46,001 nt of DNA from a virus. The position numbers were made by a program, and so were the translations under genes. The notes beneath the pieces are model-generated. The model ran no database searches. It had not been told where the DNA came from and saw nothing but the letters and a program-made list of their open reading frames with translations. The stretch lies in the IMG/VR virus record IMGVR_UViG_3300020000_000027, positions 1-46,001 of that record, one strand, 5' to 3'. Positions within the stretch are counted from its first letter, which is position 1. The number at the start of each line of letters is the position of its first letter. Positions 13,573 to 46,001 of the stretch are shown here, in pieces.

Positions 13573-13602
13573 AGACGAATTGTAACCCAAGCAGGGACCG
13601 GG

Positions 13603-13779: not shown

Positions 13780-13889
13780 CGAAGCCCTACGTCACCCTGA
13801 CGTTTTTGGAATGGCTGAAGTTGACCACCAAGGCCGCGAAGTGCGATCGGCTGGTCGCGGCTTACGAAGCGGAGAACAAGACAGCATGA
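13776..13889 (+). CDS. Small hypothetical protein (37 aa)
   Basis: It starts at GTG 13776 within the previous stop (GTGA overlap) and ends with TGA overlapping ATG 13886. The product is 37 aa, with an aromatic N-terminal part (YVTLTFLEWLKL) and a basic/acidic amphipathic helix (AKCDRLVAAYEAENK). Both tight overlaps argue it is translated. Function unknown; it may be an accessory of the lysis block. Confidence 0.45.
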   Translation: MTKPYVTLTFLEWLKLTTKAAKCDRLVAAYEAENKTA

Positions 13890-19744: not shown

Positions 19745-19751
19745 GTCGGCG

Positions 19752-19757
19752 AGTATA
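19752..19757 (-). promoter_or_regulatory. -10 box of the repressor promoter
   Basis: The minus strand reads TATACT here, eight bases before the repressor ATG at 19744. Transcription would begin at or within a base or two of the start codon, so the repressor mRNA should be leaderless. The operator at 19754-19769 overlaps this box, so binding there would autoregulate the repressor. The -35 region (TTGTGG, 15 bp upstream) is weak. Confidence 0.5.
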
Positions 19758-19769
19758 CCGTACGGGATA
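19754..19769. promoter_or_regulatory. Operator 1 (TATACC-N4-GGGATA)
   Basis: A 16-bp near-palindrome, TATACCGTACGGGATA, with a 6-4-6 half-site layout. The right half GGGATA matches the consensus shared by the other two sites, and the left half has one change from TATCCC. It overlaps the repressor -10 box. Confidence 0.6.
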
Positions 19770-19784
19770 TTCCCACAAGTCATT

Positions 19785-25946: not shown

Positions 25947-26684
25947 ATGACACCGTTGGTGCTGAGTTTGTTTCCAGGCATCGGGCTTCTCGATCGCGCC
26001 TTTGAGGAAGAAGGCTTTTGTGTAGTGCGCGGGCCGGATGTGTTGTGGGGAGGCGATGTGAAGCGATTTCACCCGCCGGCTGGGAAGTTCGACGGCGTGA
26101 TTGGAGGGCCTCCGTGTCAGCGATTCTCCACGTTGTCCAACATCAACCGCGTGCGCTATGGCGAGGAGTCGTTGGCGGAAAACCTCATTCCAGAATACGA
26201 GCGCGTCGTTGCTGAGTCGCAGCCGGATTGGGCCTTGATGGAGAACGTCCCCAACGCGCCAGAGCCGTGCGTGGCCGGGTATCGCGTGGCGTCACTGCTC
26301 CTGAATAACCGCGATTGCGGCGGCGACCAGCACCGCGAGCGTCGATTCTCGCTCCTCACGGTCGACGGTCGGGCACTCGGCTTGGAGTGGTGGCGTCCCG
26401 CGGTGTCGGCCACATGGACGCCAGCCGCGACCTCTACCGCGGGCGGTCGACGAGCCGCACCACGCATCGATGACGCAGGACGTTTCCAGGGCGCGATCTT
26501 GGTCAATCGCAGTGCCTCCGATCTCGCTCAAGCACAAGGACTGCCGGCTGACTTTCTGGCTGATGCGCCATTCACCACGCATGGACGAAAGCGCGTGATC
26601 GCCAACGGCGTGCCACTACCGATGGGTCGAGCGATTGCCAGGGCCGTGAAAACCGCGATGAACTATCAACTTGAGGTCGCTTAA
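25947..26684 (+). CDS. Orphan cytosine-5 DNA methyltransferase
   Basis: The 245-aa enzyme transfers a methyl group from SAM to cytosine C5. Motifs appear in order: I (LSLFPGIGLLDRAF, residues 6-19), IV with the catalytic Cys57 (GGPPCQRFS), VI (ENVP, 99-102), VIII (QHRERR, 128-133) and X (NGVPLPMG, 220-227). The target recognition part between VIII and X is only about 85 residues, so the enzyme is shorter than typical M.HhaI-like proteins. No partner restriction enzyme with the same origin is apparent, although a PD-(D/E)XK protein lies 260 bp downstream. It probably protects phage DNA from host restriction. It is flanked by a 14-bp direct repeat. Confidence 0.9.
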   Translation: MTPLVLSLFPGIGLLDRAFEEEGFCVVRGPDVLWGGDVKRFHPPAGKFDGVIGGPPCQRFSTLSNINRVRYGEESLAENLIPEYERVVAESQPDWALMENVPNAPEPCVAGYRVASLLLNNRDCGGDQHRERRFSLLTVDGRALGLEWWRPAVSATWTPAATSTAGGRRAAPRIDDAGRFQGAILVNRSASDLAQAQGLPADFLADAPFTTHGRKRVIANGVPLPMGRAIARAVKTAMNYQLEVA

Positions 26685-29566: not shown

Positions 29567-29953
29567 TTGAAAAAATTGAAAGGACCCCATGGGGGCGCAC
29601 GGCCTGGCGCCGGCATGCCCAAGGGCTACAAAACCCAGAAGACCCTCACGAAAGAAGCCGGCCGCGAAGCCTTACGGCAGTTGGTCTTAGCGCAGATGGC
29701 GGATCTCGCCGCCGCGCAGCTCGCCAACGCCAAAGGGCTGAAGTATCTCGTCACCCGCGACAAAAAGACCGGGAAGTTCATTCGTGTGGGAGAGGCGATG
29801 GCGGGGAATCAGACCGAAGAAACCATCGAAGTCTGGGAAAAAGACCCGTCCGTCCAAGCGTTTACCGATCTGATGAACCGAGCCCTGGATAAACCTGCCG
29901 AACAAGAACAGGCCGTCGCTGTGACGGGGACGCTGAAGATTTCATGGGCGTAA
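29567..29953 (+). CDS. terS: Terminase small subunit candidate
   Basis: The start is taken as TTG 29567, giving 128 aa that begin KKLKGPHGGARPGAGMPKG. The GGARPGAG.PKG opening is characteristic of small proteins directly upstream of terL in many phages. A helical part follows (KEAGREALRQLVLAQMADLA) and a short beta region (KYLVTRDKKTGKFIRVG). It should recognise the packaging site and regulate the large subunit. ATG 29614 inside the opening motif is less likely as the start. The stop overlaps terL by ten bases. Confidence 0.65.
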   Translation: MKKLKGPHGGARPGAGMPKGYKTQKTLTKEAGREALRQLVLAQMADLAAAQLANAKGLKYLVTRDKKTGKFIRVGEAMAGNQTEETIEVWEKDPSVQAFTDLMNRALDKPAEQEQAVAVTGTLKISWA

Positions 29954-31281
29954 CCGAAGTCGTCATCCCCTACAGCCCGCGGCCCCTCCAGCGCCGGTTG
30001 CATGAGGGGATGGACGCGCATCGGTTCGGCGTGGCGGTGTGTCATCGGCGGTTCGGCAAGACGGTCTGCGCGATCAATCAACTCCAGAAAGCCGCGCTCC
30101 TCTGCGAGAAACCCCGCCCACGGTTCGCCTACATCGCGCCGACCTACACCATGGGCAAGGCGATCGCCTGGGATTACATGAGGCATTACGCCGCGCCGAT
30201 TCCGGGTGTGGTCACGAACATCTCCGAACTTCGCGTGGATTACCCGAACGGCGGGCAGTGCCGCATCTACGGGGCGGACAACCCCGATAGCCTCCGCGGG
30301 ATCTACCTCGATGGCGTGGTGCTGGACGAGTACGGCCTGATGGCGCCGAACGTGTTCTCGGAAGTCATTCGCCCGCTGATCTCGGATCGCCTTGGCTGGG
30401 TGCTGTTCATCGGCACGCCCAACGGGAAGAACCAGTTCTACGACATCGTGCAGCAGGCACAGCGCACGAAGGACTGGTTCTTCGCCGAGTACCGCGCTAG
30501 TCAGACCGGCCTCATCGCTCCGTCCGAGCTCGAGAGTGCCCGCCAGTCGATGACCGCGGATGAGTATGCCCAAGAGTTCGAGTGCTCGTTTGAGGCCTCC
30601 GTCAAAGGCGCGGTCTACGCGAGAGAGATCATCCAGGCTCGGGAAGCCGGCCGCATCACTCGCGTGCCCTATGACCCTGCCCTCCCTGTGGATACCGACT
30701 GGGATCTGGGGGTGGGGGATGCGACAGCCATCTGGTTTAGTCAAACCCTCTACTCCGGCGAAGTGCGACTGATCGACTACTACGAGAACACCGGCCAAGG
30801 CCTTCCGCACTATCGACAGGTGCTGAACGCCAAGAACTATACCTACGGTACGCACTGGGCCCCCCACGACATCCAAGTCCGCGAGATGACCTCGGGGCAC
30901 ACCCGCCTCGATGCGGCCCGCCAGATCGGGATTGAGTTCCAGGTGAGTCCGAAAGTCGAGACGCTCGAGGACGGCGTCCATGCGGCGCGGATGCTGTTGC
31001 CGCGGTGCTGGTTCGACGCGGACAAGACCGCTCGCGGCTTGGAGTGTTTGCAGCACTACCGCTGGGATTTCAACACGCGGATCAACGAGTTCAAACATCT
31101 CCCGGTGCATGACTGGGCGAGCCATGGGGCGGATGCGTTTCGCGGGTTGGCCTATCGGCACTACACCCCGAAATACAGCCCGGAGCGACAGGCGGCGCGT
31201 GAGGTGAAGCGCGCGCAACGCGACTACGACCCGTACGACCGCGTGCGGCAACCCAAGAAAGGCAGGGGAGGCTACGGATGA
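29944..31281 (+). CDS. terL: Terminase large subunit
   Basis: The 445-aa packaging motor has an ATPase and a nuclease. Walker A is the phage-type CHRRFGKT (residues 33-40), Walker B VVLDEY (125-130) with catalytic Glu, and the coupling motif IGTPNG (156-161). The RNase-H-like nuclease has Asp252/Asp254 in DTDWDLGVGD, Asp309 in WAPHD and Asp397 in HGADAF. It would cleave and translocate DNA into the prohead through the portal at 31519. Length and motif spacing are normal for headful or cos-type enzymes. The C-terminus is basic. Confidence 0.92.
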   Translation: MGVTEVVIPYSPRPLQRRLHEGMDAHRFGVAVCHRRFGKTVCAINQLQKAALLCEKPRPRFAYIAPTYTMGKAIAWDYMRHYAAPIPGVVTNISELRVDYPNGGQCRIYGADNPDSLRGIYLDGVVLDEYGLMAPNVFSEVIRPLISDRLGWVLFIGTPNGKNQFYDIVQQAQRTKDWFFAEYRASQTGLIAPSELESARQSMTADEYAQEFECSFEASVKGAVYAREIIQAREAGRITRVPYDPALPVDTDWDLGVGDATAIWFSQTLYSGEVRLIDYYENTGQGLPHYRQVLNAKNYTYGTHWAPHDIQVREMTSGHTRLDAARQIGIEFQVSPKVETLEDGVHAARMLLPRCWFDADKTARGLECLQHYRWDFNTRINEFKHLPVHDWASHGADAFRGLAYRHYTPKYSPERQAAREVKRAQRDYDPYDRVRQPKKGRGGYG

Positions 31282-31445: not shown

Positions 31446-31522
31446 TGTCCCAGACCTCCGGCGTCAATCCCACGCTCTACACGAACTACAAGAAGAAGGG
31501 CGCCAAGAAAGGCAAGAAGTGA
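31445..31522 (+). CDS. Tiny Lys-rich peptide (25 aa)
   Basis: The frame runs from ATG 31445 (TGATG overlap) to TGA 31520-31522, which overlaps the GTG of the portal gene. The C-terminal half is highly basic (YKKKGAKKGKK). It resembles small basic proteins placed between terminase and portal in some phages. Function unknown; a DNA-binding or portal-assembly role is possible. Confidence 0.5.
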   Translation: MSQTSGVNPTLYTNYKKKGAKKGKK

Positions 31523-33597
31523 GTAAGGCGCCACGCGATCCCTTCGATGTCTCGCTGACGAAAGAGCAACGGGAGAAGCTCGCCCTCTGGCTCTCCCAGG
31601 AGCTGGATAACGGCCTCAACGCCAAGAGCGCCCAAGACATCGAAGTCGATTACTGGCACATGCTCTATGAGCAGGCGCGGACTCGTTCATCTCGCAACCT
31701 CCCGTGGCCGGATGCGGCCGACCTCACCTCGCATCTCGCCTGCGCGAACGTGGACGCTCTCCATGCACGGGCGATGAAGACGATCTGGACCGAACCCGTC
31801 TGCACCGTGGAAGGCTGGGGTCAAGCCGCCGACAATGCCCCATTCGTCGAAGAGTTCCACCAGTGGAAAGCGGAAGAGGAGCGGCTACAGTCGGTCCTTG
31901 ACAAGCTCCTCCTGATCTCCCTGATCGAACCGCGGGGCCTCTTGGAAGTCTCGGAAGGCTCCGAGTGGCGCACCGTCCGGAAACGCATTCAGGCGCAGCT
32001 CCAGACCGATCCGACCACGGGCGGGATGGTCTATGACGAGAACGGGCAACCGCAACCGCAGACGAAACCGGATGGGACCTACGTCGAATCGCAGGATCCG
32101 AACATCCCCTCCGCGCAGATCTTGATCGACTCGACGGAGAACCAGCGCATCGGTCCGCAATACCGCATCATCCCCTACCGCGATTCGGTGATCCTCCCCG
32201 GCCATGCCCGCGAGAAAGAGGAAATCTGGGCCTACGGGAAGCGCCTGTGGAAACGCTATAGCGAGATCATGGCCCTGGCAACAGGACCACGGGCGATCTA
32301 CGACAAAGCGACAGCGGACGAACTCACCAAGACCGGCGCGGATCGGGAAGGCGAAAACGCTCTCGACCGCGCCAACATGTCCGTCGCCCCACAAGACGAC
32401 ACCACGGCTGAAAAGGAACTCTGGGAGGTTCTCGTCCTCATCGACCTCAAAGCCTTCTTCGAGACGTGGAGTATGGATGCCCCGAAGGGTGTCAAGGACG
32501 GCGCTCGGTGGTATCTGGCGACCTGTCACAAAGATCAGCACCTGTTGCTCCGCTGGCAGTATGACGATCTCGAGCGCAGCCGGTTCGTCCAGATCACCCC
32601 GTTTCCGCGTCCTGACCGGGCCACCGAGGGCTTCTCGTTTGTCGGCCACAAGCTGATCACCACGATCGAAGAGCACACCGCCTATCGCAATATGGCGGCG
32701 GATCGCTCCTCGATGGCGAACAGTGTCCCGATCCTCCGTATGCAGGGAGCCCTGTGGGATCCGGAAGAACAGCCATGGGGCCCGAAAGCCGTCATCGACG
32801 TGCGCGATCCCCGCGAACTGCACCCGATGGAAGTGCCTGACGTGCCGGCCAGCGTGTTCAATCACATGACGATGTGTGAACGCACCGCCGAACGGCTCGC
32901 CGGCATCAACGACGTGGCGTCAGGACAAGTCTCGCAGGCGGATCGCACACTGGGTGAAATTCAGATGGCGACGGAGCAATCCTTCGTCCGCATGGATCTG
33001 TTCATTCGCCGGGTGCAGGAGAGCATCGAAGACCTGTATCAGATTCGGCATGCCATCTGGAAACGTGTCCTGGCGGAACAGCCAGACGGCATCGACGCCC
33101 CACAGTCGTTGGTGGTCGGGATGGAAGGCAAAGGCGTCCCGATCGACCAGTTCATGCCGGACAAGAAGATCACGGCCTCGCTGCTGGAGGGGGCGTTCCG
33201 GTTCAAGCCGCATGGGTCTGTGGAAACGGCGGACATCGGGAAACTACGAGCGGACTTCATTGCGTCGATGCAGTTCATGCCACAACTCTTGGCGGCGTTC
33301 CCGCAGATGCAGGTGCAGTTCCGCGGACCGGCCGCCGCTCGCGCCATGACGCAGCAGTTTGTGCGCTTGTTCCGGATCCCGAATCCGCAGGCGTTTCTCG
33401 GCTCGCCAGCCCAAGAGATGCAGCAAGCGTTGGCACCGGGCGGGATGCCGCCGGGGATGCTGGGAGCACCTCCGGGTCAGCCTCCAGGTGTTCCGCCCGG
33501 TCTCCCTCCGGGGATGCCGCCTCCCGGTGGACCGCCGATGGGCGGACCAGGACTGGCCCCGCCGCCGACCGCACCGATTCCGCTCGGTGGGACGTAG
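31519..33597 (+). CDS. Portal protein
   Basis: The 692-aa protein starts at GTG 31519 directly after the terminase genes. It shows the features of large podovirus portals: an N-terminal helical region with WHMLYEQARTRSSRNLPWPD, a long body with PYRDSVILPGHARE and WYLATCHKDQHLLLRW, a segment with TAYRNMAADRSSMANSVPIL (clip/stem region), and TLGEIQMATEQSFVRMDLFI near residue 480. The last 65 residues are Pro/Gly/Met-rich, possibly a flexible barrel tail. It would form the dodecameric DNA entry ring. Confidence comes from position and pattern together. Confidence 0.8.
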   Translation: MSKAPRDPFDVSLTKEQREKLALWLSQELDNGLNAKSAQDIEVDYWHMLYEQARTRSSRNLPWPDAADLTSHLACANVDALHARAMKTIWTEPVCTVEGWGQAADNAPFVEEFHQWKAEEERLQSVLDKLLLISLIEPRGLLEVSEGSEWRTVRKRIQAQLQTDPTTGGMVYDENGQPQPQTKPDGTYVESQDPNIPSAQILIDSTENQRIGPQYRIIPYRDSVILPGHAREKEEIWAYGKRLWKRYSEIMALATGPRAIYDKATADELTKTGADREGENALDRANMSVAPQDDTTAEKELWEVLVLIDLKAFFETWSMDAPKGVKDGARWYLATCHKDQHLLLRWQYDDLERSRFVQITPFPRPDRATEGFSFVGHKLITTIEEHTAYRNMAADRSSMANSVPILRMQGALWDPEEQPWGPKAVIDVRDPRELHPMEVPDVPASVFNHMTMCERTAERLAGINDVASGQVSQADRTLGEIQMATEQSFVRMDLFIRRVQESIEDLYQIRHAIWKRVLAEQPDGIDAPQSLVVGMEGKGVPIDQFMPDKKITASLLEGAFRFKPHGSVETADIGKLRADFIASMQFMPQLLAAFPQMQVQFRGPAAARAMTQQFVRLFRIPNPQAFLGSPAQEMQQALAPGGMPPGMLGAPPGQPPGVPPGLPPGMPPPGGPPMGGPGLAPPPTAPIPLGGT

Positions 33598-33855
33598 GTG
33601 GACGAGTGGCAAGAACGAGTCATCGAGCATCGCAAGGAAGGTCGGACCTACGAGCCGCTGTATCGCGATTGGTGCATCCCGAACAGAGAGTGGCAACTGT
33701 GCAAACTGGAAGCCCTGCGTTACAAGTATGGCCGCTACAAAGGCAAGGGCGGAACGATGCAGGCGCTCGGTGATTGGGGTCGATTAGTGGCCCCTCTCGT
33801 CCCTGCGCTCATCGGCATCTACACCGTGCTGCGAATCTTACGGTATTGGCGCTAG
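33598..33855 (+). CDS. Small protein with C-terminal membrane span
   Basis: GTG 33598 immediately follows the portal stop. The 85-aa product has a basic, aromatic N-terminal region resembling a small HTH (EHRKEGRTYEPLYRDWCIPN) and a C-terminal hydrophobic segment (LVAPLVPALIGIYTVLRIL). It could be membrane-anchored or a virion protein with a buried helix. The stop overlaps the GTG of the methyltransferase (TAGTG). Confidence 0.55.
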   Translation: MDEWQERVIEHRKEGRTYEPLYRDWCIPNREWQLCKLEALRYKYGRYKGKGGTMQALGDWGRLVAPLVPALIGIYTVLRILRYWR

Positions 33856-34415
33856 TGGGCTTCGATCACGGCAACGATCTGTGTCTCTCGTTCTGGGCGA
33901 CGGCGATGGAGAAAGGCTGGATTCACTTCCCGCCGAATGCGACGGTGCTGGAGATTGGCTGTGCCGAGGCCGACTGGATCACGCCGATGCTCAAGGAACG
34001 GCCAGACCTCCAGATTACCGGCCTCGACTGGCGCGCCTGTGAGCGACCTGGCACCACGATTCAGGGGAACGTGCTTGACGCGGATCTCTTTCCTCCGGCG
34101 TCCTTCGATTGCATCGTGAGTGTCTCCGCGATTGAGCATGTCGGCCTTGGCAGCTACGAGAACGACCCCGGCGATCGACACGGCGATAAGCACGCGATGC
34201 AGAACGCGGCGCGGTGGTTGAAACCGGGGGGATGGATGTACCTCGACGTGCCGTATCGCGAGGAGGCGTACGAAGTCCACGGCAGTTTTCGTGCCTACGA
34301 TACCGCGGCGATTGATCGACGGCTCCTGCCGGGGTTTCTCAAGACGTGCTGGGCGAAATGCGTCGTGGATCATCCGGACGGCCCCTATATGGCGATGCTT
34401 TTGGAGAAGGCGTAG
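33855..34415 (+). CDS. Class I SAM-dependent methyltransferase
   Basis: The start is GTG 33855, giving 186 aa. Motif I is VLEIGCAEADW, motif II ITGLDW, motif III region GNVLDADLFPPASFDCIVSV, and the post-III strand GGWMYLDVPYRE. The order is that of small-molecule or sugar methyltransferases rather than DNA methyltransferases (no NPPY/DPPY). It may methylate a glycan or lipid. It sits between portal and scaffold genes, apart from the main sugar cassette but in the same operon. Confidence 0.75.
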   Translation: MGFDHGNDLCLSFWATAMEKGWIHFPPNATVLEIGCAEADWITPMLKERPDLQITGLDWRACERPGTTIQGNVLDADLFPPASFDCIVSVSAIEHVGLGSYENDPGDRHGDKHAMQNAARWLKPGGWMYLDVPYREEAYEVHGSFRAYDTAAIDRRLLPGFLKTCWAKCVVDHPDGPYMAMLLEKA

Positions 34416-34534: not shown

Positions 34535-34822
34535 ATGACTGACGAAAAGCAAGACCTCGACAACCTTCTGAAACATCCCGGCTGGCAGCGTGTCGTGGAA
34601 TACGCGACGAAAGACATCGCCAACCGCATCAAGACCGCCCAACGCAATGCCGCGAATGAAACCAACGACATCATGGCGCTCAACCAACTCCGCCAGTGTC
34701 TGGCGGCCGAACAAGCCCTCGAAACGTTCGTGGCGTGGCCCCAAGCCCGTCTGAAGGCGTTGGAACATGCCGCCGCGCAAACCACCACGAGCGGACAGAT
34801 GTCACGGCGAGGGACGCTGTGA
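34535..34822 (+). CDS. Helical protein before the co-chaperonin (95 aa)
   Basis: The product is all helical (NLLKHPGWQRVVEYATK, then IKTAQRNAANETND, then LRQCLAAEQALETFVAWPQA). This type of short helical protein often lies upstream of scaffold genes in podovirus-like phages, with no assigned function. It overlaps the GroES-like gene by four bases. Confidence 0.55.
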   Translation: MTDEKQDLDNLLKHPGWQRVVEYATKDIANRIKTAQRNAANETNDIMALNQLRQCLAAEQALETFVAWPQARLKALEHAAAQTTTSGQMSRRGTL

Positions 34823-35226
34823 CCCTCAAGCCGCTAGGGGATCGGATCCTCATTAAGCCCGAGATTCCGCCGAACGTCACCGAGTCCGGGTTGATTCTCC
34901 AAGAGGAGCGGAAGCCGGAACAGACCGGGACGGTCATTGCTGTCGGTCCGTGCTCACATCCACGGAAGGCCGAGGCTGAAGAACTCGCCGGATGGTTCGA
35001 CAAGTTCACGATTGATCCCGGTCAGCCCAAGACGCGGGCGAGACATGAACAGACGAAAGAACTGCTCCGCGATCTGGTCCGCAAAGAACCCGAAGTCAAG
35101 GTCGGGGATTACGTCGTGTTCTCGTGGACCGCTGGACAGGAAATCTGGGTGGAAGACGGGCAGGATCGTCTCTTGTTGATGCGTGAATCCGATCTCTTGT
35201 GTGTCGTGGAAGGTCTTGAAGTATGA
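34819..35226 (+). CDS. Phage GroES-type co-chaperonin
   Basis: The 135-aa protein starts at GTG 34819. It opens LKPLGDRILIKPE, the hallmark of GroES/Cpn10. A mobile loop follows (residues about 17-30) with the hydrophobic tripeptide LIL in place of IVL, which docks on GroEL, then TGTVIAVGP. The end matches Cpn10 as well: VKVGDYVVFSWTAGQEI, then LLLMRESDLLCVVE. Between about residues 46 and 91 there is extra helical, charged sequence not found in bacterial GroES (95-97 aa). Like T4 gp31, it probably replaces host GroES to fold the coat protein. Its place just before the scaffold gene supports this. Confidence 0.88.
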   Translation: MTLKPLGDRILIKPEIPPNVTESGLILQEERKPEQTGTVIAVGPCSHPRKAEAEELAGWFDKFTIDPGQPKTRARHEQTKELLRDLVRKEPEVKVGDYVVFSWTAGQEIWVEDGQDRLLLMRESDLLCVVEGLEV

Positions 35227-36104
35227 GTGATGAAGGGTTAGTCAATCTCGAAGAGGACGGACCGGCTGTCGAAGCGGCATTCCCCGCAGAACCGGCCGCA
35301 GCCGAAGCGCCAGCGACTGAGGCTCCTGTTGAAGCCGCCGCGGAACAGCCTGCGGAAGTCGAAGCGGTGGAAGTCGCCGGCCAACGGTATGTCCCGGCCG
35401 GTGTCCTGCGGGAACTACAGGAAGAGCGCAAACAGCGCAAGGAGCTCCAGAAGCAGAACGCCGACCTGGACGCCTATGCAAGAGACTCGCGGCCTTATGT
35501 TGAGTTCCTGAAGGCGAATCCCGGCCTAATCAACGGTCGCCAGCAACAGGCCCAACCCGCCGCACCGCAGCAGGAGACAGCCGATCCGCAGACCGAAGCC
35601 CTCGCGAAGACGTTGGACCTCTACACGCCGGAAGGGAAGCCGGACCTTGCGCGAGCGGGCACGATTCGCCAGATGATGACGGCGACGGCTCAGCAGATCG
35701 CGCAGCAGACCATCGCCCCGATGCGCGAGGAGAGCGATCAAACCAAGTCCGCCCGCAACTTCCAGGTCGCGCTGGGGATCAAGAGCGCGGACGGTCGATC
35801 CCCGAGTCAGCAGGCCCTCGCGCAGATCTGGCGCACCATGCCAGCGAGTCAGACGGCCGATCCGAATGTCGCCTCGATCCTCGCCCTGACCGCCCTTGGC
35901 CTGGACAGCGTGAGCACGAAACCCCTCCCCGCGGCGCCGGCACAAGCCCCGCTCGTCACGGAAGGGCAGGGCGGAGGACCACGCCGACCGTCCCTCTCTG
36001 CGATGGAACAGAGCATCGCTCGGGATCGCGGGATGAAAGAAGCGGACTGGGCGGCCAATACCAAAGGCTTTACCCCCGGCCGTGCGAATCAGTTAGAGGA
36101 TTAA
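35223..36104 (+). CDS. Scaffolding protein candidate
   Basis: The 293-aa protein starts at ATG 35223. It has an acidic Ala/Glu/Pro-rich N-terminus (residues 1-50), a coiled coil (VLRELQEERKQRKELQKQNA), a helical Gln/Ala-rich middle, and a basic C-terminus near residue 255-280. Acidic start, coiled coil and short basic tail are typical of podovirus scaffolds that line the prohead and contact the coat protein. It follows the co-chaperonin. No protease triad seen. Confidence 0.65.
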   Translation: MSDEGLVNLEEDGPAVEAAFPAEPAAAEAPATEAPVEAAAEQPAEVEAVEVAGQRYVPAGVLRELQEERKQRKELQKQNADLDAYARDSRPYVEFLKANPGLINGRQQQAQPAAPQQETADPQTEALAKTLDLYTPEGKPDLARAGTIRQMMTATAQQIAQQTIAPMREESDQTKSARNFQVALGIKSADGRSPSQQALAQIWRTMPASQTADPNVASILALTALGLDSVSTKPLPAAPAQAPLVTEGQGGGPRRPSLSAMEQSIARDRGMKEADWAANTKGFTPGRANQLED

Positions 36105-36635
36105 ATGCCGAGAAAACCACGGATTCAGGTCACCGAGCGCAACATCCAGACCGGACTCAACACGATCATCGACAGCGACCCGCGCTATAAGGCGCGTCTC
36201 CAGAACGTCTTCAACGAACCGTCCGCCCCGATCAATCTCCACGATGCCAGCCGGGAGTGCCGGTGGTTCAACGCGGCGATTGCGACCGATCACATCTGGC
36301 GCTCAAAGCGAAAGGGCTGGGACCAGGTGCGACTCGGGGATGTCGTGGACCCGGAGCAGATCGGTGGCTACAACGTGTCGCCGGAGGGCTACATCACCCG
36401 CGGCGAACGGGGCCATGAAGTGCTCATGTCGATGCCGAAGGAAGTCCGGCAGGCGGTGCAGGCCGCGAAGATTCGGCAGAACATCGCCACGATGGGCAAT
36501 CCCAACGCGATGAAGAACGACGTGGTCAACGCCACGGCGGAACGGTACGGCGACGAAGGGGCGGAGTACATCTCGAAGCACGTCAACGTCACCGACACCT
36601 TCGAGCGGGTGGAGCGGACGGCGATCGACGAGTAA
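36105..36635 (+). CDS. Head-operon protein of unknown function (176 aa)
   Basis: ATG 36105 directly follows the scaffold stop. The protein begins with a basic segment (MPRKPRIQVTERN) and has a mixed fold (DASRECRWFNAAIATDHIW, then WDQVRLGDVVD, then GYNVSPEGYITRGE) and a C-terminal acidic part. Proteins in this position are usually virion-associated or head-assembly factors. The final TAA shares its last A with the ATG of the nucleotidyltransferase (TAATG). Confidence 0.6.
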   Translation: MPRKPRIQVTERNIQTGLNTIIDSDPRYKARLQNVFNEPSAPINLHDASRECRWFNAAIATDHIWRSKRKGWDQVRLGDVVDPEQIGGYNVSPEGYITRGERGHEVLMSMPKEVRQAVQAAKIRQNIATMGNPNAMKNDVVNATAERYGDEGAEYISKHVNVTDTFERVERTAIDE

Positions 36636-37027
36636 TGCGGGTGCTCGCGGACGGCTGTTTCGATCCGTTGCACATGGGGCATCTGCGCTACCTGTCAGCG
36701 GCGCGAGAGTTGGGGCGGCCGTTGATCGTGCATATCGCGCCAGATGAGGCGATTCGGGCAAAGGGGCGGGAACCGTTCCAGACACGCTTCGAACGGGCCA
36801 GAACGGTCCTGCACCTTGATATGGTCGATCAGGTGCAGTGCCACGACTCGTTGGCAATCGCGGTGCTCAGCAACTGCCCACGGTATCTGGTGAAGGGATC
36901 GGACTGGCGGGGGCGACTACCGGACGAGGTGTTACAAGCCTGCCGCGAAGCCGAGACGGAAATCATCTACACCGAGACACAAGATAAAACCAGCACCGAA
37001 CGTTTGCATGACACTCGATCAGTTTGA
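36635..37027 (+). CDS. Cytidylyltransferase-like nucleotidyltransferase (RfaE2/TagD type)
   Basis: The 130-aa enzyme is a single HxGH nucleotidyltransferase domain: DGCFDPLHMGHLRYL (residues 7-21, with His13 and His16), a KGSDWRGRL segment near 88, and KTSTERL near 118, matching the late motif ISTT.R-like of the RfaE C-domain and glycerol-phosphate cytidylyltransferase families. It would attach NMP to a sugar- or polyol-phosphate. It opens the sugar cassette (overlapping the previous gene) and overlaps the next gene by 20 bases. Substrate cannot be read. Confidence 0.8.
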   Translation: MRVLADGCFDPLHMGHLRYLSAARELGRPLIVHIAPDEAIRAKGREPFQTRFERARTVLHLDMVDQVQCHDSLAIAVLSNCPRYLVKGSDWRGRLPDEVLQACREAETEIIYTETQDKTSTERLHDTRSV

Positions 37028-37637
37028 AACGCTCGTCCAGAGCCAGAAACCCGCGTCGGTGCCGTGGCAACCGGTCACGGACTACTCCTTTGAGGCACGG
37101 GCCGCGATTGAGGCGGACCATCCGCGCTTGATCAAAGAGACATTCAACCCGGACTTCGTGATCGACGCCGGGTGCGGGCCAGATGGCGTGCTGGTGCGGA
37201 TGCTGATCGATCACGGCGTGCAGGTGCTCGGATTTGACCCGCAGATACCGAAGCAGAGCATCAATCCGGCGCTCATCCATGGTTCGCTGATTGAGTCGCG
37301 CTTCGGCAATGACGATGACGAACCCTTTGCGGACCTCGTGGTCTGCCGGGAAGTCTTGGAGCATCTGACGATCGCGCATGTTCGAGCGGCCGTGCGGAAC
37401 CTCTGTCGGATGACCACCAAGTTCGTCTATGTGACGACGCGCTTCCATCCGAATCCAACCTCGTTGCTCGACGTGGCAACCTCGGACGAGCTCGACCCGA
37501 CCCATATCACGATGCTGAATCAGGACTTCCTGCGGTTGCTGTTCGTGCTGGAAGGCTTTACCCGCTGCCGTGATCTGGAAACCGCGATGGACTGGCAGGG
37601 GAAAGGGCGGGTGCTCGTCTATGAACGGCACAATTGA
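37008..37637 (+). CDS. SAM-dependent methyltransferase of the sugar cassette
   Basis: The 209-aa protein is a class I methyltransferase: FVIDAGCGPDGVLVRML (motif I), VLGFDPQ (II), ADLVVCREVLEHL (post-II, typical of sugar and small-molecule methyltransferases), then KFVYVTTRFHP. The E-V-L-E-H pattern favours a metabolite substrate. It lies between the nucleotidyltransferase and a glycosyltransferase and may methylate an activated or transferred sugar. Overlaps on both sides indicate co-translation. Confidence 0.75.
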   Translation: MTLDQFETLVQSQKPASVPWQPVTDYSFEARAAIEADHPRLIKETFNPDFVIDAGCGPDGVLVRMLIDHGVQVLGFDPQIPKQSINPALIHGSLIESRFGNDDDEPFADLVVCREVLEHLTIAHVRAAVRNLCRMTTKFVYVTTRFHPNPTSLLDVATSDELDPTHITMLNQDFLRLLFVLEGFTRCRDLETAMDWQGKGRVLVYERHN

Positions 37638-38349
37638 CGCCATCCTGAGCTACCACCTAAATCCCGCAACGTGTGGCGTGGCGAAGTTCAACCATGCGCT
37701 CGCGAAGCGGTTGGGCGTGCCATGCGATCACATCTCAGCGGTCGGCTATAAGCGCCCCCTGTGGTCGGTGAAAGCCTCCGAGGTTGGCACGAACTGGCCG
37801 TCGATCATCTCGCTGCCCTACGACGTGTTCTGGCACGATGACGGAGACGCGCTGATCACCAGTAAGGCGGAGCGGGTGTTCTACGCGGATCGCACAGGCT
37901 GTCCCTCCACCGTGGAAGGCAACCCGACCAGAGGCGCTTATCGCGTGCTCGCCTTCGGCATGGCGCACAAGTTGGCGCTGAAGCACTTCGAGAACCTCAA
38001 GCGCGAACTCGACCGCGATCATCCCGACTACACGATTGAACTCTCGACGGCGGTCCATGAAGGCAACCCATGGGATGAAGCTCTCGCGGAGAGCACGGAG
38101 GCGATGCGTGCGATTTTTGGCGATCGTCTTCGGGTATTGGGCTTTCTCGCAGATGATGCTCTGGCTCGCGTGCTTCAAGAATGCGATGCTGTGGCGGCGT
38201 TCTACGTTCCGGCCCTCCGTGCGAACAATACGACAGCATGGGCTGCGTTGTCCGCCGGCAAGTTCCTCTACACCAATCTCGACCAGCACTCGCCTGAGTT
38301 GAACCCGGAGAAATACTCCTGGGACAACCTCTTAAAGGTGCTGGCGTGA
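37621..38349 (+). CDS. GT-B-like glycosyltransferase
   Basis: ATG 37621 is chosen because the upstream frame belongs to the overlapping methyltransferase. The 242-aa protein has an N-terminal LSYHLNPATCGVAKFNHALA (typical of glycosyltransferase family GT4 starts, G.....A), a middle LAFGMAHKLALKH, and a C-terminal part with LRVLGFLADDALARVLQECD and a late AAFYVPALRANNTTAWAAL, the acceptor/nucleotide-sugar side. It is shorter than typical GT4 enzymes (350 aa or more). It would transfer a sugar to another sugar, lipid or protein. Confidence 0.65.
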   Translation: MNGTIDAILSYHLNPATCGVAKFNHALAKRLGVPCDHISAVGYKRPLWSVKASEVGTNWPSIISLPYDVFWHDDGDALITSKAERVFYADRTGCPSTVEGNPTRGAYRVLAFGMAHKLALKHFENLKRELDRDHPDYTIELSTAVHEGNPWDEALAESTEAMRAIFGDRLRVLGFLADDALARVLQECDAVAAFYVPALRANNTTAWAALSAGKFLYTNLDQHSPELNPEKYSWDNLLKVLA

Positions 38350-39275
38350 GAGAACTGATCATTGGCGGACAGCGGATCGCGGACGCTGAGCCGTGTTATG
38401 TGATCGCGGAGATTGGGCACAACCACGGCGGGGATGTCCAGACCGCGAAGGCGATGATCAAGGCCGCGGCGAAAGCGGGGGCGAGTGCCGTCAAGCTCCA
38501 GAAACGTGACAATGAAACCCTCTACAGCGCCGAGCTGCTCGCGAAGCCCTACGAGAACGAAAACAGCTTTGGGAAGACGTATGGTGCCCACCGGCTCGCC
38601 TTGGAGTTTCACGCTGAGCAGTATCGCCAGTGTCGAGCCGAAGCCGCGATCCGCAACGTCGCCTTCTTTGCGACGGCATTCGATGAAGCGTCGGCGGACT
38701 TTCTCACACTCCTGAACGTCCCGGCGATCAAGATTGCCTCGGGAGGACTGACCGATCACGCGCTGCTGCGCTACGTCTCGAAGCTCGAGCGGCCGATCAT
38801 CCTCTCAACCGGCGGAGGCACATGGGAGGACGTAGACGCCGCGGTGAACATCCTGACCGCAGGGCCGTCACCGTTCGCGCTGTTGCATTGCACGGCGGCC
38901 TATCCTGTCCTGAACTACGCGGAATTGAATCTGCTCGCCATCGTGGAGATGCGAAACCGGTATCCGAACACGGTGATCGGGTGGTCCGGGCATGACAGCG
39001 GGATCGCGATGGCACTCGTCGCCTACGCCTACGGGGCGCGGATCATCGAGAAGCACTTCACCCTGAATCGGGCGATGAAAGGGACGGATCATGCGTTCAG
39101 TCTGGAACCGGCTGGACTCCGAAAACTGGTTCGTGACTTGGCCCGAGCGCGGGAGTCCAGCGGTGACGGGGTCAAGCGTCTCTTTCCATCCGAAGTCAAA
39201 CCCCTCTCTAAAATGCGACGGGTTCACACTGACGACGGCTTACGTGTTACCGGATCCACCAATGCCAGCTATTGA
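38346..39275 (+). CDS. neuB: NeuB-family nonulosonic acid synthase lacking the SAF domain
   Basis: The 309-aa enzyme would condense phosphoenolpyruvate with an N-acetylated hexose to make a nine-carbon acid (sialic, legionaminic or pseudaminic type). Motifs in order are IAEIGHNHGGD (20-30), SAVKLQKR (47-54), KIASGGLTDH (129-138), ILSTGGG (152-158), LLHCTAAYP (179-187), IGWSGHDSG (211-219, metal-ligand His) and IIEKHFTL with KGTDHAFSLEP (233-255). Known NeuB enzymes are 340-350 aa with a C-terminal antifreeze-like (SAF) domain whose Arg reaches into the partner's site. Here the barrel ends near residue 275 and only about 30 residues follow. GTG 38346 overlaps the glycosyltransferase end. Confidence 0.88.
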   Translation: MRELIIGGQRIADAEPCYVIAEIGHNHGGDVQTAKAMIKAAAKAGASAVKLQKRDNETLYSAELLAKPYENENSFGKTYGAHRLALEFHAEQYRQCRAEAAIRNVAFFATAFDEASADFLTLLNVPAIKIASGGLTDHALLRYVSKLERPIILSTGGGTWEDVDAAVNILTAGPSPFALLHCTAAYPVLNYAELNLLAIVEMRNRYPNTVIGWSGHDSGIAMALVAYAYGARIIEKHFTLNRAMKGTDHAFSLEPAGLRKLVRDLARARESSGDGVKRLFPSEVKPLSKMRRVHTDDGLRVTGSTNASY

Positions 39276-39609
39276 GAAGTTCGAACCGCGCAAGCTCGGC
39301 CCGAAAGACTGGGGCACGGAACTGCTCGTCGCCCATACGCCGCTCTACACCGGCAAGGTGCTGAGCATGAACGCGGGAGCGACGGGCCCGTTGCAGTATC
39401 ACGAACGCAAGGACGAGACGTTTTACCTGTTCAGCGGGGAAGCCTTGGTCCATGACGGGAACGCCTCGCATCCGATGCATCCAGGCGAGAGTTGGCACGT
39501 CCCCCCAGGGGCGGTGCATCGGGTCGAAGCGATCACCGATTGCGTGTTCTTTGAAGCGTCGAACGCGGTGTTCGATGATCGTGTGGCGGTCGAGGGGCAT
39601 CCGGTATGA
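39262..39609 (+). CDS. Cupin (mannose-6-phosphate isomerase-type) protein
   Basis: ATG 39262 lies 14 bases before the neuB stop. The 115-aa single cupin has AGATGPLQYHERKDETFYLF (metal-binding H..., E) and MHPGESWHVPPGAVHRVEA (G-x-H region), the two conserved cupin boxes. Similar cupins occur next to sialic-acid-like gene sets and in nucleotide-sugar clusters, where they may epimerise or isomerise a sugar. Here it sits exactly between NeuB and NeuA. Reaction unknown. Confidence 0.8.
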   Translation: MPAIEKFEPRKLGPKDWGTELLVAHTPLYTGKVLSMNAGATGPLQYHERKDETFYLFSGEALVHDGNASHPMHPGESWHVPPGAVHRVEAITDCVFFEASNAVFDDRVAVEGHPV

Positions 39610-40358
39610 AGATGGTCGCGCTGATTCCGGCGCGGGCTGGATCGAAGCGCATTCCCGGCAAGAACACGAAACTGCTGGCTGGGCGGGCGTTATTGGAATG
39701 GTCAGTGCAAGCGGCGAAGGACAGCGGTGTATTTTCTGGCGTAGTGGTGTCGAGCGAGGACGATACCACGTTGAAGATCGCAGAGGCTGCCGGCGCAACT
39801 CCTCTGCTACGTTCTTCGGATGATGCGACCGACGATTCTCCAGACGTGCGATGGGTCAGAGATGCACTTACTGAGTGGCCCGCGAACGCCTTCGCAATTC
39901 TGCGTCCGACCTCTCCATTTCGCACCGCCGCGACGATTCTGCGCGCTTACAAGAACTTCCAGTTGCAAGAAGTTCATTCGATGCGAGCTGTCCAGATGGT
40001 GTCCGAGCATCCCGGAAAAATGTGGCAATGGGGCGGAGCGGGACACACGATCAAGCCTCTCATTCGGCATGGTTGGCCGACTTATTGGGGGGAAGCGATC
40101 GAGCCGGGGGAGACGCCGTGGCACTCACAACCCACGCAGGAGTTACCAACCGTGTTCGTGCAGAACGCCTCACTGGAGATGGCGTGGAGTTGGGTGATTC
40201 CCGCGTTCGGCACCATCAGCGGTAACAAGGTGGCCCCGTTCTTCACCGAAGGCTATGAAGGCTTCGATCTCAACACCATGGACGATTGGCGCGAAGCCGA
40301 ACGCCTTATCAAAGAAGGACTCGTTGACCTCCCCTCGCTGCCTCTGGCCCGCGTATAA
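39606..40358 (+). CDS. neuA: CMP-nonulosonate cytidylyltransferase (NeuA-like)
   Basis: The 250-aa enzyme would activate the nonulosonic acid with CTP. It begins VALIPARAGSKRIPGKN (residues 4-19, the nucleotide-binding loop of acylneuraminate cytidylyltransferases), continues with VVSSEDDTTLKIAE, FAILRPTSPFRTA (the RP.SP.R motif), and ends in FDLNTMDDWREAERLI (D...N..DD, metal and substrate binding). Length is normal (about 230-250). It follows NeuB and the cupin in the right metabolic order. PseF- or LegF-type substrates are equally possible. Confidence 0.88.
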   Translation: MKMVALIPARAGSKRIPGKNTKLLAGRALLEWSVQAAKDSGVFSGVVVSSEDDTTLKIAEAAGATPLLRSSDDATDDSPDVRWVRDALTEWPANAFAILRPTSPFRTAATILRAYKNFQLQEVHSMRAVQMVSEHPGKMWQWGGAGHTIKPLIRHGWPTYWGEAIEPGETPWHSQPTQELPTVFVQNASLEMAWSWVIPAFGTISGNKVAPFFTEGYEGFDLNTMDDWREAERLIKEGLVDLPSLPLARV

Positions 40359-41304
40359 ACAACTCCTCCGTCACACCGAATCCCCGATCCTCGCCGGTCC
40401 CTGGCGTGGCGAGGTGGGCTTCGAGGCGTTGTACTGGATTCCCTTCCTGCGTCGGCTGATGAAATCCTGCGGCATCAGCCCGGATCGGCTCATCCCGATC
40501 ACCCGCGGCGGGGCAGCGGCCTGGTATGGCACCTCGACTGGCGTGGAGCTCTACGACATGCGGACCCCGCAACAGGTCCGGGTCGAGAACCGCATCCAGC
40601 ACGCCAAACACGCCCAGTTGAAACAGACGCACTGGACACCCTTCGACCGTGCCGTCGTCAAGGACGTAGCGCACACGCTGGGCCTGAAGCATTACCTGAC
40701 CCTGCATCCCTCATGGATGTTCCAACGGTTGATGCCCTACTTCGCCAGCGAGATGAGCCTACATGCGCTCGAGCAGGACGCGCTCTTTGATCCTTTGACC
40801 GTGCCGGCGCTCCCGGTTGGCCTCGAGCTGCCGGAGAAGTTCGTCGCCGTGCGGTTCTATCTGCGGCATACGTTCCCCGGCCATCCCCAAGTACTGAACT
40901 TCGCGCAGACCTCCATCGAGCAGATCGCCGCGGGGATTCCCGTGGTGCTGTTGAATAGCGGGATTCACGCGGACGAGCATCAGGACGTGATCGTCAAAGC
41001 GATGCCCAATGTCGTGAAACTGACGGATCTGACGGACGTGACGCCGGCCAATAATCTGGCCGTGCAGAGCGCGGTGCTGGCACGGGCAATGGGCTTTGTC
41101 GGCACCTATGGGGGGCTCTCGCAGCTCGCGTTACGCCTCGGCAGGCCATCGGTGAGCTACTACCACGAGTGGGGCGGGACGGCGATCGCGCACAAGCATT
41201 TAGCCGATGCCCTCGCGTTAAATCACGGGATTCCGTGTCAGGTGCATAAGCTCGGAGAACTCCCACTGCTGCAAAGTGTCGTCCCCACGCTCGTGGTCGC
41301 GTGA
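40324..41304 (+). CDS. Glycosyltransferase candidate at the end of the cassette
   Basis: The start is taken as TTG 40324 inside the 3' end of neuA, giving about 326 aa. There is no good ATG. The protein reads like a GT-B enzyme acting with a nucleotide sugar: a Rossmann-like part (KFVAVRFYLRHTFPGHPQ), PVVLLNSGIHADEH, then a conserved-looking C-terminal LARAMGFVGTYGGLSQLALR and GRPSVSYYHEW. The G-x-Y-G-x-L-S-x-L-A pattern is like the nucleotide-sugar site of surface glycan transferases. It could place the CMP-activated sugar. Family unnamed; confidence is moderate. Confidence 0.6.
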   Translation: MTSPRCLWPAYKQLLRHTESPILAGPWRGEVGFEALYWIPFLRRLMKSCGISPDRLIPITRGGAAAWYGTSTGVELYDMRTPQQVRVENRIQHAKHAQLKQTHWTPFDRAVVKDVAHTLGLKHYLTLHPSWMFQRLMPYFASEMSLHALEQDALFDPLTVPALPVGLELPEKFVAVRFYLRHTFPGHPQVLNFAQTSIEQIAAGIPVVLLNSGIHADEHQDVIVKAMPNVVKLTDLTDVTPANNLAVQSAVLARAMGFVGTYGGLSQLALRLGRPSVSYYHEWGGTAIAHKHLADALALNHGIPCQVHKLGELPLLQSVVPTLVVA

Positions 41305-41602
41305 TCTATACCAGATATAGCCAGCGGCGTGAAATAGTCGCGCTAAGGTAGCGGTATACCGTTACGCGCACAGCTCTCCTCGCCCTGAGAGCGGGTTCCT
41401 GGGGTGTTCGGATTCCTTCGCGGCTCCGCAGACGAGCGAGGGAATCGGCCGTCGTACCGTCTGTGTTCGCGCTCACCATGCGCGTCGTACGTGGTGTTTC
41501 GGATTTCGATCGGCTCGTGGTCAGCGATCGGATTCGGCCTCGTTCTGACCTCCCAACTAACAACACGGTCTAGTCGCGCCCCTGTGCGCGCTGGGAGATC
41601 AC
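41305..41602 (+). ncRNA. Long structured leader upstream of the capsid genes
   Basis: There is no convincing gene in these 298 bases. Instead there are inverted repeats throughout: CTATA/TATAG (41306-41320), an 18-bp near-palindrome at 41348-41365 flanked by GCGC on both sides, an 11-bp stem GATTCCTTCGC/GCGAGGGAATC with one G-U pair (41411-41421 with 41436-41446), CGATCG pairs around 41510-41530, and CGCGC/GCGCG (41575-41590) immediately before the ribosome site GGGAG. It may end the sugar-cassette transcript and act as 5' leader or promoter for the coat genes. No known riboswitch recognised. Confidence 0.5.
41348..41365. terminator. 18-bp palindrome after the sugar cassette
   Basis: GTAGCGGTATACCGTTAC (one G-U-type mismatch) lies 44 bases downstream of the last sugar-cassette gene, with GCGC at 41340-41343 and 41366-41369 extending the stem around a TAAG bulge. 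It forms a strong hairpin but has no T-run, so it may be a Rho-assisted pause, an RNase site or a protein operator rather than a classic terminator. Confidence 0.35.
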
Positions 41603-42175
41603 ATGACAGACTTTGTGCTGTCGTCGGGGAACATCATGCGACCGTATCGGTCGCCATGGGGCGCCTTCCCGACGCGCGGCTTCGCGCTTTCCACGGGTAT
41701 CAGTTCGAACGCCATCATTCTGGGTCGCATCGTCGGCCTGGATGTCAACACCGACTCCAACGCCTCGCAGATCCTGCCGTCCTCGCAGACGGCCGGCGTC
41801 GTCATGTCCACCGCGATTGTCGGCGTGGCCGCCGAAGGCGCGGTCGGACCGGGCTCGACCAACACCCGCGGCACGGTCATCAGCGTCTGGGAAGCCAACC
41901 CGCTGATCGAGTTCCGCGCCAACACGCAGGGCGCGAACCTCGGTTCCTCGCAGGTCGGCAAGACCAAGGCGCTCGTGTGGGACTCGACCCTGACCATCCA
42001 TAAGGTCGATCTCAGCAACTCCACCCTGATCAACGTCCGCTGCGTCGTGACGCAGTTGCTGGACAACGAGGGCGATTCGGGTGGCGCGGTGGCGTTCCGG
42101 TTCATTGCGAATACGCCTCCCGCTGCGGATTCCACTGTCAGCCGCTCGGTGCTGGCGTTCTACGGGAAGGCGTAA
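41603..42175 (+). CDS. Small capsid-associated (decoration-like) protein
   Basis: The 190-aa protein starts at ATG 41603 after GGGAGATCAC. It is beta-rich with many Thr, Ser and Gly. The DFVLSSGNIMRPYRSPW opening, a segment with VVMSTAIVGVAAEGAVGPG and the VTQLLDNEGDSGGAVAFRFI end resemble head decoration proteins encoded just before coat genes. It would bind the outside of the capsid. Its stop lies three bases before the coat ATG. Confidence 0.65.
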   Translation: MTDFVLSSGNIMRPYRSPWGAFPTRGFALSTGISSNAIILGRIVGLDVNTDSNASQILPSSQTAGVVMSTAIVGVAAEGAVGPGSTNTRGTVISVWEANPLIEFRANTQGANLGSSQVGKTKALVWDSTLTIHKVDLSNSTLINVRCVVTQLLDNEGDSGGAVAFRFIANTPPAADSTVSRSVLAFYGKA

Positions 42176-42178: not shown

Positions 42179-43099
42179 ATGGCCCAAGTACGCGGCACAA
42201 ACCCGGACCTCTACGACAATATCGACAAGACGTTCATGGGGGTCATGAAGGGGCAGCTCAAGGAGCTCCCGAAGATCTACCCGAACGTCTTCAACATCAA
42301 ATCGTCCGACCGCAAGTTCGAGCGCATCGTCTCGTACGTGCCGTTTGGCGATACCCAGTCCAAGCCCGAAGGCGAGCCCTTCGTTATGGACACTCTCCGG
42401 CAGGGCTACACGAAGGACTTCACGCACACCGAGAACGGCCTGGGCTTCGAAGTGACCCAGACGGCGCTCGAGGATGACGTGGAGAACATCCTGACCAAGG
42501 CCGGCGAGTGGCTGGCGTTCTCGGCGCGCTACGTCGAGGAAGGCCGCGCTGCGAACCCGTTCAACAACGGCTTCGGCACGGAAACCACCCCGGACGGCGT
42601 GTCGCTGTTCAACACCGCGCACCTCCTGCGCGGCGGTGGCTCAGCGAAGAACCGGCCCTCGACTGACGCGGACCTCTCAGCCACGTCGCTGACCCAGGCC
42701 CTCATCGACCTCCAGACCGATCAGAAGGACGAAGCGGGGCACCTCTCGGCCCCGGTGACCGACTGGATCCTCTACATCCCGCCGGCTCTGGAGTTCCTGG
42801 CGGATCGTCTGATCAACTCGGTGGGCCTCCCGTCGAGTGCGGACAACGACCGCAACCCGATCAAGGCGCGTCGGCAGTGGACGATTGTCGTCAATCCCCG
42901 TCTGACGGACGCGGATGCGTGGTTCCTCGTCGCCGGCGCGAAGTCGCGGCATGGCCTCACGTTCTACCGCCGTGTGCCGATCACGATGGAGCCGATGGCG
43001 ATCGATCCGCGGACGAACAACCGCATCTTCAAGTGCCGGCACCGCTTCTCGGTCGGCGCGTGGACGTGGGTCGGCACGTACGGCACCGCAGGCGCCTAG
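42179..43099 (+). CDS. Major capsid protein (HK97 fold, Mu gpT-like)
   Basis: The 306-aa protein has the pattern of HK97-fold coat proteins related to Mu gpT: a short N-terminal arm, FERIVSYVPFGDTQSKPEG, the E-loop/P-domain region TENGLGFEVTQTALEDDVEN, then WLAFSARYVEEGRAANPFN, SLFNTAHLL, a helix with TQALIDLQTDQKDEAG, WILYIPPALEFLADRLI and the C-terminal beta part ending RHRFSVGAWTWVG. About 33 kDa is normal for such coat proteins. A scaffold gene and a GroES homologue are encoded upstream in the same operon. Confidence 0.85.
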   Translation: MAQVRGTNPDLYDNIDKTFMGVMKGQLKELPKIYPNVFNIKSSDRKFERIVSYVPFGDTQSKPEGEPFVMDTLRQGYTKDFTHTENGLGFEVTQTALEDDVENILTKAGEWLAFSARYVEEGRAANPFNNGFGTETTPDGVSLFNTAHLLRGGGSAKNRPSTDADLSATSLTQALIDLQTDQKDEAGHLSAPVTDWILYIPPALEFLADRLINSVGLPSSADNDRNPIKARRQWTIVVNPRLTDADAWFLVAGAKSRHGLTFYRRVPITMEPMAIDPRTNNRIFKCRHRFSVGAWTWVGTYGTAGA

Positions 43100-45687: not shown

Positions 45688-45981
45688 ATGTCTGTCTATA
45701 CGGTCGATCGGACCACGATCAATGCCAAGGCTGGCAACTTGCTGCAGCAGTTGGACGCGACGTTTCTGCGGGTGCAGCAATTGAAAGCCTTCCTCGACAC
45801 GATTCCGGATGCCTCCTTGATCTCCGCCTACGGCTACGTGCAGGGCGACATTGACATCCTGCGTTCGTCCCTCGTTGATGCCGAGCAGTTGCGGACGATC
45901 TATCAGGGGACGGCGAATCTCTCGGTGGCGAAGGATTTCCGAACATTTTCGAAGCAGGTCTACGCCTTCGGGTCCATCTAA
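45688..45981 (+). CDS. Small helical late protein (97 aa), full-length copy
   Basis: ATG 45688 follows AAAGGAGTCGG. The protein is mostly helical with several heptad-like stretches (GNLLQQLDATFLRVQQLKAF, then GDIDILRSSLVDAEQLRTIY). It may bridge fibre and tail components. Its 3' part is duplicated at 1-101 because the circular genome is cut here. The TAA overlaps the ATG of the exported protein. Confidence 0.7.
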   Translation: MSVYTVDRTTINAKAGNLLQQLDATFLRVQQLKAFLDTIPDASLISAYGYVQGDIDILRSSLVDAEQLRTIYQGTANLSVAKDFRTFSKQVYAFGSI

Positions 45982-46001
45982 TGCGAAGCCTGGAACTGCT
46001 C
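45881..46001. repeat. Terminal direct repeat, copy 2
   Basis: This is the same sequence as 1-121 except G at 45993 in place of A at 113. It shows the genome is circular or circularly permuted. The one mismatch suggests strain variation in the sample or an end-of-contig error. Confidence 0.9.
45981..46001 (+). CDS. 5' fragment of the exported protein gene (wrap-around copy)
   Basis: The first seven codons of the gene at 101-1342 are repeated here, reading MRSLELL instead of MRSLKLL because of the mismatch at 45993. A Glu in place of Lys would weaken the positive N-region of the signal peptide, so the Lys version at 113 is the more plausible sequence. Confidence 0.8.

Follow-up and report, generated by a model that had tools for sequence, protein, structure and literature searches.

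Results

The window analysed here is the whole of IMG/VR record IMGVR_UViG_3300020000_000027 (46,001 bases), described as a soil-type bacteriophage, and it carries within its head operon a cassette of seven genes (36635 to 41304), among them genes for a NeuB-family synthase and a NeuA-type cytidine monophosphate (CMP)-sugar synthetase. All seven lie on the plus strand, each overlapping the next by 4 to 104 nucleotides (nt), and both the coordinates and the Pfam matches agree with the arrangement described in the first-pass annotation, which was made from the sequence alone. The order is a small nucleotidyltransferase of the HldE-II/TagD-like kind (36635 to 37027; CTP_transf_like, 4e-12), an S-adenosylmethionine (SAM)-dependent methyltransferase (37008 to 37637; Methyltransf_23, 2e-10), a putative glycosyltransferase that we call GT1 (37621 to 38349), the NeuB-family synthase (38346 to 39275; 309 amino acids; PF03102, 4e-71), a cupin resembling sugar isomerases/epimerases (39262 to 39609; Cupin_2, 2e-12), the NeuA-type enzyme (39606 to 40358; PF02348 [CTP_transf_3], 3e-18), and GT2, a GT-B glycosyltransferase with a predicted GT9 (heptosyltransferase) fold (40255 to 41304). 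The Pfam matches of the nucleotidyltransferase, methyltransferase, NeuB, cupin, and NeuA were all above the gathering score, and the earlier assignments of the methyltransferase and the cupin were thereby borne out; the start codon of the cupin lies at about 39262, and the mechanical open reading frame start at 39091 is too early. The first gene had been read as a cytidylyltransferase: it does encode a nucleotidyltransferase, but one that most resembles heptose-phosphate adenylyltransferases (HldE domain II; rfaE_dom_II, 4e-17, below the cut-off) rather than to CMP-sugar enzymes.

On the plus strand the cassette is preceded by the large terminase subunit (TerL; 29944 to 31281; phrog_2, E = 3e-35), the portal protein (31519 to 33597; phrog_1216, E = 2e-8), a second SAM-dependent methyltransferase (33774 to 34415; Methyltransf_23, 1e-10), a GroES-like co-chaperonin (34696 to 35226; Cpn10, 5e-15), a putative scaffold assigned from its position and conserved synteny with no family match (35223 to 36104), and, directly upstream, a conserved head-operon protein (36105 to 36635). 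It is followed by a 298-nt gap (41305 to 41602), a conserved plus-strand protein that is possibly a decoration protein (41603 to 42175; conserved in the lineage, no family match), and the major capsid (coat) protein (42179 to 43099, plus strand; Phage_capsid_4, 1e-15). The cassette thus does lie between the scaffold region and the coat gene, as first proposed, but the gap and the gene at 41603 separate it from the coat gene. A similar gap is present in relatives, and in the window no sigma-70 site or terminator-like site was listed within it. GC content shows no jump at the cassette. No transmembrane-like or hydrophobic segment was found in any product of the seven-gene cassette, in the second methyltransferase, or in the protein encoded at 7369 to 8265 that is described below.

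NeuB matched PF03102 with 239.8 bits (gathering score, 22.1), and 13 of 14 positions checked against meningococcal SiaC, which we take to be phosphoenolpyruvate (PEP), metal, and sugar-contact positions, were invariant in a 21-row alignment (E25, K53, Q55, T110, K129, S132, S154, Y186, S213, H215, E234, H236, and D247 in SiaC); the remaining one, N184, is Ala in the window. The C-terminal antifreeze-like SAF domain (PF08666), usually present in characterized NeuB enzymes and in the meningococcal one the source of an arginine that touches the N-acetyl sugar, is absent, and an unrelated tail of 19 residues stands in its place. NeuA matched CTP_transf_3 with 66.8 bits (gathering score, 22.6) and has the IPARAGSKRIPGKN motif; its nearest solved relatives are CMP-N-acetylneuraminic acid (NeuAc) synthetases, KdsB being much weaker. 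The profile searches that had been suggested for NeuB and NeuA therefore placed both in the right Pfam families, but below the curated cut-offs for a particular nonulosonate: NeuB scored 236.5 bits against 399.65 for NeuAc synthase (TIGR03569) and 197.7 against 340.25 for the pseudaminic acid (Pse) synthase PseI (TIGR03586), and NeuA scored 91.4 against 205.7 for PseF (TIGR03584). Given these scores and the loss of SAF, we describe the product only as nonulosonate-like; that the chemistry belongs to the class in which a 2-keto-3-deoxy acid is activated with CMP is very probable.

Two glycosyltransferases had been predicted in the cassette, and they fared differently. The AlphaFold2 model of GT2 (predicted local distance difference test [pLDDT], 90; predicted template modelling score [pTM], 0.88) best matched GT9 heptosyltransferases (Z = 13.5 over 246 residues with a root mean square deviation of 4.0, and Z = 13.1), with Foldseek pointing to WaaC/TibC at a probability of 1.0, although the score against the Glyco_transf_9 profile (14.7 bits) was below the gathering score of 22. 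GT1 remained unmatched in Pfam, PHROGs, NCBIfam, and a PDB profile search, and its label is inferred; the gene is kept with the cassette in both phages and bacteria. Two coat relatives that lack NeuB (L220 and L221) keep a GT2 homolog close to the portal gene; GT2 may therefore predate NeuB in the coat family.

Outside 36635 to 41304 we found two likely further members of the cassette. One is the second methyltransferase, whose homolog sits inside the cassette in two related contigs (L013 and L047). The other is a late-module protein encoded on the plus strand at 7369 to 8265, a candidate CMP-sugar transferase with a predicted CstII/GT42 fold. Its AlphaFold2 model (pLDDT, 88; pTM, 0.68) retrieved only sialyltransferases at Foldseek ranks 1 to 10 (CstII, Cst-I, and the Pasteurella enzyme; best E = 7e-4) and aligned to the CstII-like fold with Z = 10.3 over 155 residues at about 14% identity; the second-best fold, that of pterin pyrophosphokinase (HPPK), was close behind at Z = 9.6. 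The best sequence-profile match was also CstII, weakly (E = 1). The gene is conserved in the lineage; among long records, 18 of 19 with NeuB have it versus 2 of 10 without NeuB (one-sided Fisher P of about 9e-5, calculated by hand, with descent as a confounder). A shorter second copy of the gene lies inside the NeuB cassette of three HK97-type phages (L143, L144, and L147).

Scans of IMG/VR yielded 17 loci for NeuB and 39 for the coat protein. The search for the same synteny in related phages, proposed in the first-pass annotation, placed the cassette between head genes, at the same position between homologs of the 36105 and 41603 genes, in at least ten independent contigs (L002, L003, L010, L011, L032, L035, L040, L044, L047, and others). 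Its expected placement with the head genes, for expression with virion genes, was thus kept in relatives. Gene content was steadier than gene order: NeuA and the cupin are swapped in L024, and the cupin precedes NeuB in L044. On the L009/L029 contig the portal-scaffold block and the cassette are still together, and the 41603 and coat genes lie elsewhere on the other strand. One apparent cassette-less relative, L048, was set aside: the interval between its 36105-like and 41603-like genes looked empty, but NeuB lies in a fuller cluster elsewhere on the contig. NeuB was found in all 12 contigs of at least 30 kb whose coat protein is at least 72% identical; among 17 viral records tested, it was missing from just one, a 17-kb fragment. 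It was also present in a relative with 57% coat identity and in most relatives at 47 to 50%, in 3 of 6 more distant coat relatives (48 to 53%), and in 0 of 7 at about 35%. Further NeuB genes occur in L159, L160, L161, L163, and L192, and the last four also encode a coat protein belonging to this family. An integrase beside the cassette of L192 was considered and rejected, the neighbor (12664 to 15216) being a fusion of a helicase and an N6/N4 DNA methylase, restriction-modification-like in character.

The NeuBs of the coat family (23 rows) formed one clade with a Shimodaira-Hasegawa approximate likelihood ratio (SH-aLRT) support of 95, NeuB and coat distances were correlated (Spearman, 0.58; permutation P = 0.0025), and in the closer pairs the nonsynonymous rate (dN) was about a tenth of the synonymous rate (dS). 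These patterns show the cassette to be long-lived and under purifying selection. They bear equally on the concern, raised at the outset, that the block might be an assembly chimera or recently captured, nonfunctional host DNA: the same junctions with phage genes recur in many independent contigs, GC content is even, the NeuB clade is phage only, and we found nothing in favor of such an insert, so that we rejected it as extremely improbable and consider the pathway to have been under selection for a long time.

NeuB also occurs in unrelated phages. In HK97-type siphophages, defined by the phrog_9 terminase, phrog_12 portal, and phrog_10 coat protein, NeuB directly follows TerL, and genes for a short-chain dehydrogenase/reductase (SDR), NeuA, a transketolase, or an FkbM methyltransferase usually come before the portal gene; such partners are present at L014, L018, L142, L143, L145 to L147, and L149, and NeuB stands without them at L162 and L167. 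The run between terminase and portal reads NeuB-SDR-NeuA(-transketolase)-FkbM in L018, L142, L143, L146, L147, and L149. In two further loci (L012 and L015), NeuB lies directly upstream of TerL. The HK97-type NeuBs form one side of a branch with SH-aLRT support of 96, apart from the window clade, and those of L012 and L015 fall elsewhere among bacterial sequences. These separate clades suggest that NeuB was probably acquired several times, ending beside terminase or portal, the number of uptakes being approximate since the tree came from a quick search.

The nearest bacterial NeuBs are 52 to 58% identical and have a SAF-like C-terminal tail (SAF was confirmed in L058). Acidobacterial metagenome-assembled genomes carry the parent cluster of the phage cassette: two of them (L058 and L060) have the order nucleotidyltransferase-methyltransferase-GT1-NeuB-SDR-aldehyde dehydrogenase-NeuA-transketolase, and two more (L068 and L073) have most of it. 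The window phage retains the first four genes in order, has the cupin in the place of the SDR and aldehyde dehydrogenase, and lacks the transketolase. An SDR and a transketolase are still present in a distant phage relative (G011; locus L138), SAF is still present in the early-branching phage relatives L024 and L035, and SAF-like tails occur in L025 and L044; read on the tree, the persistence of SDR and transketolase in G011 and of SAF in L024 and L035 points to reduction inside the phage family. Because the NeuB/NeuA cluster of L058 (11093 to 16344) contains an SDR, an aldehyde dehydrogenase, and a transketolase, its precursor may be made by a route different from the usual N-acetylhexosamine (HexNAc) pathways.

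The record carries a terminal direct repeat of 121 bases (1 to 121 versus 45881 to 46001, with one mismatch) and is classed as linear; the repeat indicates that the genome is probably complete and circularly assembled, at about 45.9 kb. On the minus strand lie a tyrosine integrase (18183 to 19262; Phage_integrase, 9e-15) and a helix-turn-helix (HTH) repressor-like protein (19271 to 19783; HTH_3, 2e-8), from which we consider the phage probably temperate. The early region also encodes a C5 cytosine DNA methylase (25947 to 26684; DNA_methylase, 1e-17), and the late region a protein combining an HTH with a calcineurin-like phosphoesterase (15935 to 17008). As regards a host or prophage, none of the 80 loci listed from the NeuB scan of GTDB genomes had the coat or portal gene of this phage, and coat-protein searches in three groups of genomes (396, 385, and 396) returned distant coat relatives only.

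Discussion

Our results are consistent with a phage that produces a nonulosonate-like sugar in CMP-activated form and uses it to decorate the virion, a reading to which we give about even odds (roughly 0.5). Direct support comes from the gene families, the NeuB active site, the predicted folds of GT2 and the 7369-8265 protein, the conserved placement, and purifying selection; from these we infer the identity of the sugar, the pairing of donors with transferases, the methyl caps, and the virion acceptor. Late in infection, the head operon would yield NeuB and NeuA alongside capsid parts. NeuB would condense PEP with an aldose, taken from the host or converted by the cupin, to a 2-keto-3-deoxy, nonulosonate-like acid, and NeuA would activate this acid with cytidine triphosphate to give the CMP-sugar; an N-acetyl sugar precursor supplied by the host is possible. 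The HldE-like enzyme might make a second nucleotide sugar, used by GT2 with its GT9 fold, while GT1 and the CstII-fold protein would complete transfer and the two methyltransferases would cap the glycan. The acceptor would most likely be at least one virion protein, modified by soluble transferases in the cytoplasm during head and tail assembly, before lysis, and the particles would be released carrying an acidic sugar coat.

Several observations weigh against this reading. NeuB has lost its SAF domain, so its activity on a standard substrate is presumptive. In 16 sequences of the CstII-fold family, no His past residue 45 is invariant or nearly so that could correspond to the catalytic H188 of CstII, the exact equivalent column not being pinpointed; because of this lack of a conserved His in the C-terminal half, and with the HPPK fold so close, we did not file the family under GT42. 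Its co-occurrence with NeuB is confounded by shared descent, and two NeuB-negative relatives (G027 and G028) also carry the gene. The sugar might instead be placed on the envelope polysaccharide of the host, in lysogens or late in infection, blocking superinfection or the readsorption of progeny to debris. The temperate life style suggested by integrase and repressor leans this way, as does the position of the cassette next to an integrase gene in two relatives (L159 and L163; L161 by eye), and the homologous bacterial clusters, including the parent clusters, sit among glycosyltransferase and polysaccharide genes. We nevertheless regard host-surface modification, the chief competing explanation, as rather unlikely: in the window lineage the cassette lies inside the head operon and not by the integrase, related NeuB genes in unrelated phages lie between TerL and portal or adjoin TerL, and the cassette encodes no membrane flippase, polymerase, or GtrA/GtrB-like protein. 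Both the absence of membrane proteins and the positions of the genes in unrelated phages favor the virion, as does the precedent of glycosylated mycobacteriophage capsids.

A further question concerns the product itself, whichever acceptor it reaches. The NeuB-like enzyme might make a 2-keto-3-deoxy sugar that is not a C9 nonulosonate, one possible starting point being a precursor formed by transketolase, as might be expected from scores so far below the NeuAc, Pse, and PseF equivalog cut-offs, from the lost SAF domain, and from the SDR and transketolase genes in the parent bacterial clusters and several phage relatives. We find this doubtful, since most sugar-contact residues of NeuB are kept and NeuA is related most closely to CMP-NeuAc synthetases. 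Returning to virion decoration by a nonulosonate-like sugar, we put forward only tentatively the broader idea that nonulosonate-type synthesis has entered the head modules of uncultured phages on repeated occasions and that these phages produce self-sialylated virions by means of a SAF-less NeuB and a CstII-fold transferase of a new family.

Among isolate phages, such genes are almost unheard of: NeuB relatives were found in 3 of 50,697 records, at 30 to 39% identity, and one of these is a bacterial capsule contig. The record L268 (FPLJ01000048.1), filed as a phage, is a contig from Moritella viscosa that carries genes for capsule and sialic acid and has nothing annotated as phage-like. We found no report of a NeuB-type head-operon cassette in phages in a literature search of open-licence full texts, which is weak evidence. 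What seems new here is that a phage system for glycan modification includes the synthesis of its CMP-sugar. Should the particle carry this sugar, the phage would be a counterpart of the sialylated animal viruses; the coat might alter its charge and adsorption, how long it persists in soil, and how hosts or predators recognize it, and glycan genes in the late operons of viromes would have to be considered candidate virion genes, not stray metabolic genes of a host.

The cassette can be set beside several known systems. The gtr serotype-conversion cassettes are likewise glycan genes carried by temperate phages, but their products include a membrane flippase and a lipid-linked transferase, neither of which was found in the window cassette. 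The acidobacterial clusters (L058, L060, L068, and L073) share its gene families, and L058 and L060 also the order nucleotidyltransferase-methyltransferase-GT1-NeuB-...-NeuA; their NeuB has SAF, and they include the SDR, aldehyde dehydrogenase, and transketolase, whereas the window phage has none of these and carries a cupin. The GT42 sialyltransferases CstII and Cst-I are matched by the predicted fold of the 7369-8265 protein, at about 14% identity, but its family alignment lacks a conserved His in the C-terminal half. Glycans are reported on the capsids of mycobacteriophages (Freeman 2023, as cited in PMC11256854 and PMC12619734). In mycobacteriophages Che8 and Rita, phage-encoded transferases are likewise present and glycosylation of capsid or tail subunits is reported (PMC11256854). 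As far as the cited papers describe them, Che8 and Rita have no de novo CMP-sugar synthesis, whereas NeuB, NeuA, and a nucleotidyltransferase lie in the head operon here. Phage virion glycosylation as cited there rests on glycosyltransferases; in the lineage of the window phage, acidic-sugar synthesis appears to be a conserved part of the head module itself.

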